DNA from: Cognatiyoonia koreensis
GTDB lineage: Bacteria > Pseudomonadota > Alphaproteobacteria > Rhodobacterales > Rhodobacteraceae
Direction: 5' to 3'
Assembly (NCBI RefSeq): GCF_900109295.1
Contig: NZ_FOIZ01000001.1
Location: forward strand, 868,001 to 932,000
Length of the DNA: 64,000 nt
Part shown: positions 27,813 to 62,522 of the stretch, one piece after another
Position numbering within the stretch: position 1 is the stretch's first letter
Layout of the letters: every line of letters starts with the position of its first letter
Notes under the pieces: generated by a model
What the model was told of the DNA's origin: nothing
What the model saw: the letters and a program-made list of their open reading frames with translations, nothing else
The model's database searches: none
Program-made: the position numbers and the translations under genes

Positions 27813-27915
27813 AAAAAAAGGGCCAGCGGCGGATCGACCAAACGGGAGGAGAAAGGTCGCGCGCACCACTGGCCGGAGCGGAGCCTCAAGACAGCGCAAG
27901 GGAGGGGTGCGCCAT
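27813..27915 (-). ncRNA. Candidate anti-Shine-Dalgarno (CcsR/'cuckoo'-like) small RNA or mRNA 3' end
   Basis: Read on the minus strand there are two hairpins. The first is GCGCA (27912-27908), loop CCCCTCCCT, TGCGC (27898-27894). The second is long: GGCCAG...CTGGCC (27874-27869 with 27826-27821) with inner stem CGACC/GGTCG (27859-27855 with 27839-27835) and a 15-base loop containing CTCCTCCC. Seven T follow at 27819-27813, so the second hairpin is also a Rho-independent terminator. C/U-rich anti-Shine-Dalgarno sequence in two successive loops is the mark of CcsR/cuckoo RNAs in alphaproteobacteria. It starts about 26 bases after the stop of the 43-codon ORF and may be processed from that mRNA. 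Confidence 0.65.
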
Positions 27916-27940
27916 CACTTTGGCTGATCGTCCGCGTGGA

Positions 27941-28072
27941 TCAGATACTGGCAAAATCCTTGAAGATCAGCGGTTTGTCTTTGCCGTCTTCAGGTTTCTT
28001 TGCCGTTGCCGCAGGTTTCTGTGGCTTTGAATTCTTTGGAGTGGACGTCCCGATAGGCTGTGCCGATGCCAT
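27941..28072 (-). CDS. Small hypothetical protein (43 residues), upstream of anti-SD hairpins
   Basis: ATG 28072-28070 to TGA 27943-27941. Start M-A-S-A-Q-P-I-G-T-S-T-P, a lysine/proline-rich middle (K-P-Q-K-P-A-A-T-A-K-K-P-E-D-G-K-D-K-P) and a short ordered-looking end L-I-F-K-D-F-A-S-I. AAGGA at 28085-28081 is well spaced before the ATG. No family recognised; it lacks the W/R pattern of the DUF1127 proteins that accompany CcsR RNAs in R. sphaeroides. Support: translation signals, codon use in keeping with the genome, and its position on the same strand directly before the two hairpins. No other ORF explains this part of the 431-base gap. Confidence 0.5.
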   Translation of the reverse strand: MASAQPIGTSTPKNSKPQKPAATAKKPEDGKDKPLIFKDFASI

Positions 28073-28221
28073 GGTCCTGTTCCTTTTGCTGCCTTTGTTG
28101 CGCGTTGTCCCTGCGCGTCACCTCTTAGCGGGTGTAGAAAAACCGTTGCACACGACCTTGGCCGAAAACCGGCGGAAATAAGGCAAGAATGTGGCGCGGC
28201 CTGTAGATCGTGCGGAACGCC

Positions 28222-30318
28222 TTATTTTGACCGGCGTTTCGGTGTTGCGTTTGGTCCTTTTCCACCCGGTTTTGACCGTGGTTTGCCGCCTGGCGGGACA
28301 AATCGCTTTGACGTATCGGACGCACTTGCGCGCGGCTTGCCTGCCGGTTTCGCACCGTCCGGCTTGCGGAACGGCTTTTCACCGGGCTTGCCCTTGCGTG
28401 GCGGTTTGCCATCGCTCTTGCCCTTGAAGGGAGGTTTTGCATCACCTTTGCTCTTGAACGGTGGCTTTGCGTCGCCCTTGCCTTTGAAGTCAGGTTTGCC
28501 ACCGTCCTTGCTTTTGAATGGCTTTTTCGCTTTCACCGCGTCGCCGTGATCCTTGCGAGGCGGTTTGCTGCGCGGCTTGTAAGGTGCGGGATCATCGGCG
28601 GCACCGGGGATTGGCTTGATCGCGTCTTGTTGCGGGGCGCGCGATGGTGGTGGGGCCGACCGGTCTTGTGGTTTGTCATAGGACTTCTTGCTGGGCCGCG
28701 CACCGCGTTCGCTGATCTGCGGCACGCCATCAAGCGCCTTCAGGGTGGCCTGATTTTCAAGCCGCATATCGTTGCCGACGGCTTTCAGGAATCCTGGCAC
28801 CGCATCTTCCCTGATCTCGACGAAGGTTTCGTTCGGCTGGATACGGATCGCCCCGATTTCACGCTTTGTGATGTCACCGGCCTTGCAGATCATTGGCAAA
28901 AGCCAACGGGCTTCGGCCTTGCCTTCGCGCCCGACATCGACGCTGAACCACTTGGACGGACCAAAGGGCTCGCGTTCCTTGCGCTCGCGCTTTTCACGCG
29001 GTGGTGGCGGGGCGTTCGGATCAATAATGGCAATGTCTTCCGGGGCGGATGCCTTGCCGGCATAAAGGCGCAGATAGGCGGCGGCAATTTTCTCTGGTGC
29101 GTGTTGCGCCAGCAGCTTTTCAGCGAAGGCCCGTTCGCCTTCGGTGAATTCCTCGGTCCAGACGTCATCCGTCAGCAGACGTTCCTCATCACGCGCCTGC
29201 ACTTCATCCGCAGAGGGCGGTGCTGCCCATTCGGCCTTGAGCTTGCCCCACTTCAACAAATTTTCTGCGCGCCTGCGCATCTTGGGCGGCACGATCATCG
29301 CCGAAATGCCTTTGCGACCCGCGCGACCGGTCCGACCGGACCGGTGCATCAGTGTTTCCGCATTGGTGGGCAGTTCTGCGTGGATCACCAGTTCAAGGTT
29401 CGGCAGGTCGATGCCACGTGCCGCCACATCGGTTGCCACACAGACCCGCGCACGTCCGTCGCGCATGGCTTGCAATGCGTGCGAGCGTTCGGTTTGCGAC
29501 AATTCACCCGACAATGCGACAACCGCAAAACCCCGGTTGGACAGGCGGGTGGTCAGACGTGTCACCATTGCGCGGGTATTGGCGAAAACGATGGCATTGG
29601 GGGCTTCGTAATAGCGCAACACGTTGATGATCGCGTTATCCGCATCATGCTGGGCCACGGTCAGTGCGCGATAGGCGATATCGGTATGTTGCGTCGCCTT
29701 CGAGACGGTGCTGATCCGTATCGCGTTGCGCTGATAGGATTTGGCCAGCTTTTCAATCATCGGCGGGACGGTTGCTGAAAACATCAGCGTGCGGCGGGTC
29801 TCGGGCGCTTTGCCAAGGATGAATTCTAGGTCTTCACGAAAGCCGAGGTCCAGCATTTCATCCGCTTCATCCAGCACGATTGCGCGGATACCCGACATAT
29901 CAAGCGAGCCGCGCAGGATGTGATCTTTCAAACGTCCAGGGGTAGCGACGACAATATGAGCCCCGCGTTCCAGCGTGCGCTTTTCGGTGCGCATATCCAT
30001 GCCACCCACACAGGACGCCATGACAGCACCGGCACCGGCGTAAAGCCATGACAGCTCGCGCTTGACCTGCAGCGCCAGTTCACGAGTCGGCGCGATGATC
30101 AACGCGCGGGGTGTGTCGGCAGGGCCAAAGTGTCCGTCATCGTTCAGGATCGTCGGCCCGATAGCCAGACCAAAGCCCACCGTCTTTCCCGATCCGGTTT
30201 GCGCGGACACAAGCAGATCATGCCCTTCGTGCTGCGGGTCGGTAACGGCCTCTTGCACAGGGGTCAGCGTGTCGTAGCCTTGCTTGGCAAGGGCATCGGC
30301 GAGGGTCTGGATCATCAA
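28222..30318 (-). CDS. DEAD-box RNA helicase, DeaD/CsdA-like, with low-complexity basic tail
   Basis: Unwinds structured RNA, typically in ribosome assembly or mRNA turnover, often in the cold. 698 residues. Motifs: Q-T-G-S-G-K-T (I), P-T-R-E-L-A (Ia), D-E-A-D (II), S-A-T (III), H-R-S-G-R-T-G-R-A-G (VI). A DbpA-type RNA-binding domain follows (about 450-530, W-L-L-P-M-I-C-K-A-G-D-I-T-K-R-E-I-G). The last 170 residues are disordered, with tandem units of the type G-D-A-K-P-P-F-K-S-K. Their DNA is correspondingly repetitive (28380-28510). Confidence 0.92.
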   Translation of the reverse strand: MMIQTLADALAKQGYDTLTPVQEAVTDPQHEGHDLLVSAQTGSGKTVGFGLAIGPTILNDDGHFGPADTPRALIIAPTRELALQVKRELSWLYAGAGAVMASCVGGMDMRTEKRTLERGAHIVVATPGRLKDHILRGSLDMSGIRAIVLDEADEMLDLGFREDLEFILGKAPETRRTLMFSATVPPMIEKLAKSYQRNAIRISTVSKATQHTDIAYRALTVAQHDADNAIINVLRYYEAPNAIVFANTRAMVTRLTTRLSNRGFAVVALSGELSQTERSHALQAMRDGRARVCVATDVAARGIDLPNLELVIHAELPTNAETLMHRSGRTGRAGRKGISAMIVPPKMRRRAENLLKWGKLKAEWAAPPSADEVQARDEERLLTDDVWTEEFTEGERAFAEKLLAQHAPEKIAAAYLRLYAGKASAPEDIAIIDPNAPPPPREKRERKEREPFGPSKWFSVDVGREGKAEARWLLPMICKAGDITKREIGAIRIQPNETFVEIREDAVPGFLKAVGNDMRLENQATLKALDGVPQISERGARPSKKSYDKPQDRSAPPPSRAPQQDAIKPIPGAADDPAPYKPRSKPPRKDHGDAVKAKKPFKSKDGGKPDFKGKGDAKPPFKSKGDAKPPFKGKSDGKPPRKGKPGEKPFRKPDGAKPAGKPRASASDTSKRFVPPGGKPRSKPGGKGPNATPKRRSK

Positions 30319-48659: not shown

Positions 48660-48708
48660 GGCGACACGCTACGCAATGACAACCTATCCGTCAACCGGCA
48701 ATTTCGGG

Positions 48709-48788
48709 CAAAAAAATGCCGCGCCAACGCGGCGCGGCCAGTCTGACAGGGAGGTGTCAATCAAGGACCGTGGGGGAGGATACGGTCT
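48709..48788 (-). ncRNA. Candidate anti-Shine-Dalgarno (CcsR/'cuckoo'-like) small RNA
   Basis: Three consecutive hairpins on the minus strand. SL1: GACCGT (48787-48782), loop ATCCTCCCCC, ACGGTC (48771-48766). SL2: TGACA (48759-48755), loop CCTCCC, TGTCA (48748-48744). SL3: GCCGCG (48733-48728), loop TTGG, CGCGGC (48723-48718), then seven U after one A (48716-48710), a clear Rho-independent terminator. Both non-terminator loops present CCUCC, the anti-Shine-Dalgarno core, as in R. sphaeroides CcsR RNAs. A possible -10 TATTCA (48799-48794) places the 5' end near 48788, for about 80 bases. It has no flanking DUF1127 gene. Confidence 0.7.
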
Positions 48789-48858
48789 TGATGTGAATAG
48801 ACTGGCACAGATTGGTTAAGAATGTATTTTGTCCGGAACGAATACAGGGAAAGACGCA

Positions 48859-61496: not shown

Positions 61497-62522
61497 TTAT
61501 GCGATGCGAATGCGTGGATTGAGGAATACGTAGCCGACGTCCGAAAGCAGCTGCGTGACGAGAACGACAAAGACCGAGACCACCGAAACGGCAAGCAGGA
61601 GTTCAATGTCGTTATTGGAAGCGGCCTGCACCAGTGTCCAACCAAAGCCCTTGTAGTTGAACAGGGTCTCGACAATCACCACGCCGTTCAGCAGCCAAGG
61701 GAATTGCAGCATGATCACCGTGAAGGGCGCGATCAGCGCGTTTCGCAGCGCGTGTTTCATGACGATATTCGGAAAGCTGACCCCTTTGAGCCGTGCCGTG
61801 CGGATGTATTGCGCTGTCATGACCTCGGTCATGGAGGCCCGTGTCATCCGTGCGATGTACCCAAGCCCGTAAAGTGCAATCGTGATGACGGGCAGGAAGA
61901 AGTTGTTGAAGTTGGCATCATCCATCGCCGCTGTCGCCGTTCCCTTGAAATACTGCATTCCGAAGAGTGGCGTTGCAAAGACGGCGATCAGGATGACACC
62001 AGAGACGTATTCAGGTGTCGCTGTCGAGACGATGGACACTGTCGAAAGCGACCGGTCAAGTCGCGATCCTTCGCGCATCCCGGCTAAAACCCCGATCACC
62101 AAGGCACCTGGCACCATGATGAGCATGACGCAGAGCATCAGTTTGCCCGTCAGCCCAAGCCGGGTGCTGATGATCGTGCTGACGTCGTCCTTGAAGACCG
62201 TTGAAAAACCCCAATCCCCTTGCAGCACGCCGCAGAACGTTTTCCCATCCTCGCAACGCCGCCGCACTTCGCCATCCGAACCTTCGACTTCGTAACCGGG
62301 CAGCACACCCAGCCATTGACCGTATTTGATCGGAAGCGGTTCAAGATATCCGTTGTTCGTCAGGTAGCTGGTGACCTGTTCATCTGACATCCGGAAGTTG
62401 CCTTCGGTTTTCGCCAGCTTTTCAAGGTTCGGATAGAGGTTCGTCAGCCAGAAGACGATGAATGTCAGGCATAAAGCCGTGAGCAGCATCACCCCAAGGC
62501 GGCGCAGAATAAACAGTCCCAT
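61497..62522 (-). CDS. ABC transporter permease, DppB type
   Basis: 341 residues. N-terminal membrane helix (I-L-R-R-L-G-V-M-L-L-T-A-L-C-L-T-F), a periplasmic stretch with a cysteine pair (R-R-C-E-D-G-K-T-F-C), five further membrane segments, and EAA motif Y-I-R-T-A-R-L-K-G-V-S-F. Partner of the extended DppC-type permease. Preceded by the terminator-like hairpin at 62596. Confidence 0.92.
   Translation of the reverse strand: MGLFILRRLGVMLLTALCLTFIVFWLTNLYPNLEKLAKTEGNFRMSDEQVTSYLTNNGYLEPLPIKYGQWLGVLPGYEVEGSDGEVRRRCEDGKTFCGVLQGDWGFSTVFKDDVSTIISTRLGLTGKLMLCVMLIMVPGALVIGVLAGMREGSRLDRSLSTVSIVSTATPEYVSGVILIAVFATPLFGMQYFKGTATAAMDDANFNNFFLPVITIALYGLGYIARMTRASMTEVMTAQYIRTARLKGVSFPNIVMKHALRNALIAPFTVIMLQFPWLLNGVVIVETLFNYKGFGWTLVQAASNNDIELLLAVSVVSVFVVLVTQLLSDVGYVFLNPRIRIA

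Follow-up and report, generated by a model that had tools for sequence, protein, structure and literature searches.

A conserved small-ORF family in Rhodobacteraceae and a cuckoo-like anti-SD element in the predicted 3′ UTR of one lineage

Organization of the small-ORF locus

The window analyzed in this study is a stretch of 64,000 nucleotides from the genome of Cognatiyoonia koreensis, and the locus of interest lies on its minus strand. In the direction of that strand, a DEAD-box helicase gene, which ends at 28222, is followed by a direct-repeat GCC box, a small ORF, two hairpins, a U7 tract, a TAGGAT hexamer, and a gene for a TfoX_C-domain protein (Table 1). A preliminary description of this DNA had proposed an ORF of 43 codons with a ribosome site, followed 26 bases later by two hairpins with anti-SD loops, the second of which also provides the U7 terminator. 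We recovered the ORF, with AAGGA eight bases ahead of its ATG, and both hairpins as described, although the distance from the stop codon to hairpin 1 measures 24 rather than 26 bases.

Table 1. Features of the small-ORF locus, given in window positions
Feature	Position	Strand	Basis or remark
Direct-repeat box CGCCACATTCTTGCCTTATTTCCGCC, GCC at 11-bp steps (GCC-N8-GCC)	28171-28196	minus	Putative activator site of the small ORF
Small ORF, 43 codons (43 aa), MASAQPIGTSTPKNSKPQKPAATAKKPEDGKDKPLIFKDFASI	28072-27941	minus	C-terminal motif F-x-D-[WYF]-A-S-I-stop
Hairpin 1, 9-bp stem, anti-SD loop CCCCUCCCU	27916-27890	minus	Counterparts elsewhere on different stems
Hairpin 2, long GGCCAG...CTGGCC stem (terminator stem)	27874-27821	minus	Counterparts in G002 and other genera
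U7 tract of intrinsic terminator	27819-27813	minus	Sequence
TAGGAT 6 nt upstream of the tfoX ATG, putative -10 of a leaderless promoter	27802-27797	minus	Sequence
TfoX_C-domain gene, 109 aa	27790-27461	minus	Pfam PF04994, E 1.2e-19

The loop of hairpin 1 (CCCCTCCCT) occupies positions 27907-27899. The terminal loop of hairpin 2 (UUUCUCCUCCCGUUU) holds the anti-SD sequence CUCCUCCC, and within this loop CTCCTCCC is located at positions 27851-27844. Folding of the region from 27940 to 27811 gave -54.3 kcal/mol (z = -3.3), and one of 200 dinucleotide shuffles was as good. The window contains only 6 copies of the hexamer CCTCCC, against 28.4 expected. Two of these copies lie close together at the small-ORF locus, and another two at positions 48749-48779. 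A terminator scan of the window did not list hairpin 2, probably because the scan permits only loops of 3-8 bases.

No promoter-like site was found between the small ORF and the hairpins. This result and the 24-nt spacing strongly imply that the ORF and the hairpins are co-transcribed. The tfoX_C gene is probably carried on a separate transcript. At 19 of 46 loci, the tfoX ATG is preceded at 6-8 nt by a hexamer of the TAnnnT type, whereas the small-ORF ATG has one at this distance at none of 47. Judging from these hexamers, tfoX_C appears to have its own leaderless promoter in many genera of the family. Furthermore, in three Cereibacter species and in genome G301, a terminator rather than tfoX_C comes after the small ORF.

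The motif of the upstream box is seen 5′ of the small ORFs in many genera. GCC-N8-GCC is present in 28 of 47 regions upstream of the small ORFs, whereas other spacings occur in 2-13. A series of three GCCs with an 11-bp period is found at 15 of 47 loci in the forward direction and at none of 47 in reverse. A longer form of the box, with at most one mismatch, has five matches in the C. koreensis genome. One is ahead of the small ORF, and two others, each with one mismatch, precede a short ORF that by eye is pilin-like (G000:C1:121069; no Pfam match at E ≤ 0.01) and an ORF that by eye is L,D-transpeptidase-like (G000:C2:957256); the remaining two lie elsewhere.

A passage in one report quotes GCC-N8-GCC as the ChvI consensus of S. 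meliloti and gives TTGC-N3-GCAA as the Caulobacter motif (PMC9731502). The box described here resembles those of the ChvI regulon in its 11-bp GCC direct repeat upstream of a small ORF. However, the S. meliloti consensus comes from a lineage other than that of our host, the Caulobacter motif differs, and our box is a putative site. Control of the small ORF by ChvI is a lead and not a result. A CenR box (TGA-N8-TGA) was also considered and set aside, because the repeat at the locus is GCC.

A small-protein family with a constrained C-terminal tail

Relatives of the small ORF were sought at 92 Rhodobacteraceae loci, which comprise 90 of the 104 genomes of the family in which PF04994 was matched, plus G001 and G002, two genomes from the genus of our host. 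Small ORFs with the tail [F/I]-x-D-[W/Y/F]-A-[S/A]-[I/L]-stop lie just 5′ of the TfoX_C-domain gene at 47 of these loci. When the tight tail motif was sought within 450 nt upstream of tfoX_C, it was present on the forward strand at 47 of the 92 loci (shuffle mean 0.05), whereas none of the 92 had it on the reverse strand or in the next 450 nt upstream. A looser tail pattern gave 48 forward matches, one reverse match, none further upstream, and a shuffle mean of 0.45.

The D of the tail is invariant among all 47 small ORFs, although the search pattern permitted five residues at this position. Likewise, the conserved tail codons vary synonymously, with D encoded by GAC in 25 cases and GAT in 22, and S encoded by AGC, TCG, AGT, or TCA. 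Outside the tail the proteins are rich in P, Q, A, T, S, and K, a composition that suggests they are probably disordered. On the strength of these comparisons of sequence, we conclude that the small ORF is a real gene.

When family genomes were searched with a 43-row profile of the tail (A2), 188 of 394 gave matches at E ≤ 0.3. Searches of Pfam and NCBIfam with the small ORF and seven relatives gave no matches at E ≤ 1. By these comparisons, the small protein is a member of an uncatalogued, conserved family that is widespread in Rhodobacteraceae, has a very constrained C-terminal tail, and falls outside the searched Pfam and NCBIfam models. This protein family is a less expected part of our results than the cuckoo-like 3′ UTR.

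A protein search of 101 genomes with the single sequence returned the ORF of the window as its sole match, and a DNA search with the locus gave only short matches, in 18 of 247 other genomes. These searches missed the family because conservation is confined to the last ~8 residues. An initial profile built from three sequences was noisy. With profile searching, a second match in the C. koreensis genome (E 0.24) was rejected, since its DWAS stretch is located away from any stop codon.

A second type of small ORF with an F-T-D-W-A-S-I tail was observed in five genomes (G106, G285, G250, G175, and G194). These ORFs carry a [D/E]-R-R stretch, three of the five have FCTAH near the start, and no tfoX was recognized within 320 nt downstream of any of them. 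In G106, CTCCTCCC repeats and a terminator come after the second-type ORF.

Distribution of the hairpins among related loci

The small ORF and tfoX are separated by at least 100 nt at 14 of the first 47 loci, and these long gaps were chosen without regard to the loop motif. A hairpin loop bearing CTCC is found in 9 of the 14, compared with a mean of 2.95 and a maximum of 6 in mononucleotide shuffles. Two such loops are found in 5 of the 14 (shuffle mean 0.36, maximum 2), and the complementary strand has none in any long gap. When a fixed 160 nt upstream of tfoX is considered instead, the separation is weak, with CTCC loops at 11 of 47 loci that have the small ORF versus 5 of 45 loci that lack it. 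None of the five loops from loci lacking the ORF contains CCTCCC.

We then considered a wider set that adds 97 ORF loci from the profile searches, representing about half of the 188 matched genomes (60 taken by place). All 97 additional loci carry the tight tail motif. After removal of 16 repeats of the original 47 and of a second locus from G154, a genome already counted, the set holds 127 entries, which include two loci from G106 and R. sphaeroides, added by hand. The start of tfoX_C was recognized just downstream in at least 101 of the 127 entries; the count is a minimum because the recognition pattern failed to pick up one or more evident starts, such as that of G037. A CTCC loop together with a run of five or more Ts is present in 14 of the 127 entries, 13 of which are among the 101 tfoX-linked loci and represent 12 genera (G000, G002, G174, G165, G205, G187, G171, G147, G051, G434, G337, G310, and G244). 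The fourteenth element, from G106, belongs to the different small ORF that shares the tail.

Because the T run was part of the criterion, every one of the 13 tfoX-linked elements has it. Of these elements, 11 contain CCTCCC (dinucleotide shuffles 2.17, maximum 6) and 5 contain it twice or more (shuffles 0.2, maximum 2), both comparisons being partly circular because the elements were picked for CTCC loops. The reverse complement, GGGAGG, is present in none of the 13. The stems differ in sequence, each element folds alone, and a common GGCCAG/CTGGCC base of hairpin 2 is shared by several genera. Conservation of the hairpins rests on folding the elements singly, since a MAFFT alignment misplaced the 5′ arms. 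The elements are not uniform: hairpin 2 lacks the motif in G165 and in G187, CCTCCC is predicted to be partly paired in hairpin 2 of G434, the elements of G165 and G310 are without CCTCCC, and the fold z-scores are modest in G205 (-1.8) and G171 (-2.4).

At the tfoX-linked loci, the element accompanies Y, F, or L, and never W, ahead of the last three residues of the tail. It is present at 13 of 34 non-W loci versus none of 67 W loci (Fisher 1.1e-7). This distribution is as expected if the element arose in one lineage of small ORFs, with lineage read here from the tail residue. Overall, the element is absent from 88 of the 101 tfoX-linked loci.

Three genomes of the same genus were compared, and all three carry the small ORF beside tfoX_C. 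In G002, hairpin 2 alone is kept; its loop carries CCTCCC, and the 95 nt after the ORF have a z-score of -3.7. G001 has the small ORF with neither hairpin. The preliminary description had named an ORF broken in close relatives, with hairpins retained elsewhere, as one pattern that would speak against it. No such case was seen in these three genomes, and the converse, an ORF retained without hairpins, occurs in G001. Because the hairpins are missing from most family loci and from G001, they are not needed for the basic function of the ORF.

Interpretation of the 3′ region

In passages of the published reports, cuckoo RNAs are described as having 2-4 hairpins whose helices are unconserved and whose loop motif is conserved (PMC4504443), with the motif given as CCUCCUCCC in Rhizobiales and alpha-r14 (PMC3927594, PMC10746234). 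Our locus is similar to members of this family (NfeR1/alpha-r14 and SmelA075/RS0680a) in having C-rich anti-SD loops on unconserved stems, as far as those sources describe them (PMC8625941, PMC3927594, PMC10746234, PMC4504443). It has two hairpins (one in G002), and the stems vary across the 12 genera. The exact 9-mer CCUCCUCCC is found in 2 of the 13 elements and not at the present locus, where the loops are CCCCUCCCU and UUUCUCCUCCCGUUU. Therefore, we refer to the element as cuckoo-like and not as a member of the cuckoo family.

Portions of two reports on R. sphaeroides state that the DUF1127 gene ccaF1 gives rise to CcsR1-4 from its 3′ UTR and that RNase E participates in maturation of the 3′ hairpins (PMC10253847, PMC8625941). 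The arrangement of CcsR1-4 and ccaF1 is comparable to ours in that hairpins lie within the 3′ part of a small-protein mRNA with a terminator at the end (PMC10253847). Our locus differs from CcsR and cuckoo RNAs in its non-DUF1127 protein, its shorter or degenerate loop motif, its position beside tfoX_C, and its two hairpins, the last of which is itself the terminator. The DUF1127 host gene of the CcsR/ccaF1 (CIN1) locus has no counterpart here, given the Pfam and NCBIfam searches with the ORF and its seven relatives.

The RSP_7527-UdsC locus of R. sphaeroides offers another comparison. Its published accounts include a small-protein mRNA of ~300 nt in which RNase E cuts the 3′ UTR to yield an sRNA of ~70 nt ending at the terminator (PMC6238624, PMC9779115), and in this respect it is like the architecture proposed here. 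However, the ORF at the published coordinates encodes MTRTNGQDMQDYV..., which is unrelated to the tail family, and we rejected the possibility that our small ORF is a homolog of RSP_7527/UdsC. When the transcript start, cleavage site, and UdsC terminator (nt 39-67) reported in the literature are placed on G301, they coincide exactly with a 57-codon ORF and its terminator, and for this reason we took G301 to be strain 2.4.1. The R. sphaeroides member of the tail family is located at 1,569,336-1,569,464 and has a plain terminator.

Additional C-rich hairpin arrays are present in the C. koreensis genome. A CcsR-type array at G000:C1:1640268-1640521 contains seven CTCCTCCC motifs, six of them within exact CCTCCTCCC matches, and is preceded by a DUF1127 ORF (PF06568, E 2.7e-12). 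Within the window, a cuckoo-like RNA at 48705-48800 on the minus strand has two hairpins with C-rich loops (UCCUCCCCC and CCUCCC; z = -4.8) and a separate GC-rich terminator after them, and it lies between neighboring genes. No convincing small ORF was found directly ahead of it, although mechanical ORFs exist there. The preliminary description had taken two such loci in 64 kb to suggest a family in this genome. The second RNA element is real, but it lacks the convincing small ORF, and the canonical CcsR-type array elsewhere follows a DUF1127 ORF.

We show here, on the basis of DNA sequence, the ORF, the predicted hairpins and terminator, and their conservation. These data support the existence of a conserved small-protein mRNA whose 3′ UTR would be a cuckoo-like anti-SD element in one lineage. 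We consider it probable that the locus encodes an mRNA with a cuckoo- or CcsR-like regulatory 3′ UTR, in which a small protein is combined with anti-SD hairpins and the second hairpin is the terminator. Transcription would start below the GCC-N8-GCC activator box and produce a short monocistronic mRNA to be translated into a small protein whose C-terminal tail hardly varies. The 3′ UTR might act within the mRNA or after endonucleolytic release of an RNA of ~100-130 nt. Its C-rich loops would pair with the purine-rich ribosome-binding sites of other mRNAs and thereby reduce their translation. The release of a 3′ RNA and its action in trans are what we infer by analogy with the published CcsR and NfeR1 RNAs.

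This region could instead be an ordinary strong terminator whose C-rich loops are a compositional accident or an aid to termination, with no regulatory RNA. Plain terminator-like hairpins do occupy the same place in G146, G036, G177, the three Cereibacter loci, and G301, and G001 has no hairpin. Even so, we judge this explanation unlikely, because 9 of 14 long gaps place an anti-SD sequence in a loop, more than in any shuffle, and such loops are spread over 12 genera on differing stems. Moreover, hairpin 1 is superfluous for termination, and CCTCCC is a hexamer that the window otherwise disfavors. A cis-acting 3′ UTR, which would serve decay of its own transcript, docking of an RNA-binding protein, ribosome capture, or nearby translation without releasing an sRNA, seems to us rather unlikely. 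The tie between the element and one lineage of small ORFs favors such a role, as does the statement in one source that the DUF1127 protein CcaF1 helps to process its own ccaF1-CcsR transcript (PMC10253847). Against it, the SDs of the small ORF and of tfoX match the loops by eye through only short AGGA-type complementarity, and similar loops are found in the 48705-48800 array, which has no convincing linked ORF.

We regard a leader-peptide attenuator as very unlikely. In such an arrangement, translation of the ORF, perhaps with stalling at its conserved C terminus, would set termination at hairpin 2 ahead of tfoX. The close adjacency of tfoX_C, the motif flush with the stop codon, and the terminator between the two genes would all suit this mechanism. 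However, a leaderless -10-like element of tfoX lies after the terminator (19 of 46 loci), Cereibacter keeps the ORF without an adjoining tfoX_C, and the distance from the stop codon to the first CTCC ranges from 12 to 71 nt. No alternative antiterminator fold was noticed in the course of the other analyses.

Returning to the regulatory 3′ UTR, the preliminary description had envisioned the same architecture as CcsR with a different, unrecognized small protein. The protein is indeed of an uncatalogued conserved family that is neither DUF1127 nor RSP_7527, and anti-SD hairpins with a terminator are found in 12 genera, but the hairpins proved optional, as seen at the 88 loci and in G001 that lack them. 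A more ambitious proposal is a new dual-function Rhodobacteraceae family. An uncatalogued, disordered protein with the D-[W/Y/F]-A-[S/A]-[I/L] tail would be produced together with an anti-SD sRNA that is specific to one lineage, under a ChvI-like (envelope-stress) box, and would be a partner of the RNA or of its pathway, much as CcaF1 is for CcsR. We consider this possible but doubtful.

If the regulatory reading is true, anti-SD hairpin RNAs extend beyond DUF1127 loci and orphan arrays to a second, unrelated small-protein family. Relatives with a plain terminator or without a hairpin would then form a natural series on how a 3′ UTR turns into a regulatory RNA. Our literature search, which did not extend to the original description of cuckoo RNAs or the earliest report on CcaF1, found no paper on the locus.

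A search of Rfam at the gathering score gave no match at the locus, and the only matches in the whole window were to tRNA and Cis52. The Cis52_sRNA match spans 61742-61920 on the plus strand (93 bits). In Ruegeria, cis52 is listed in one report as lying antisense to a gene for an oligo/dipeptide ABC permease (PMC4809877), and the match in our window may reflect merely conserved coding sequence.
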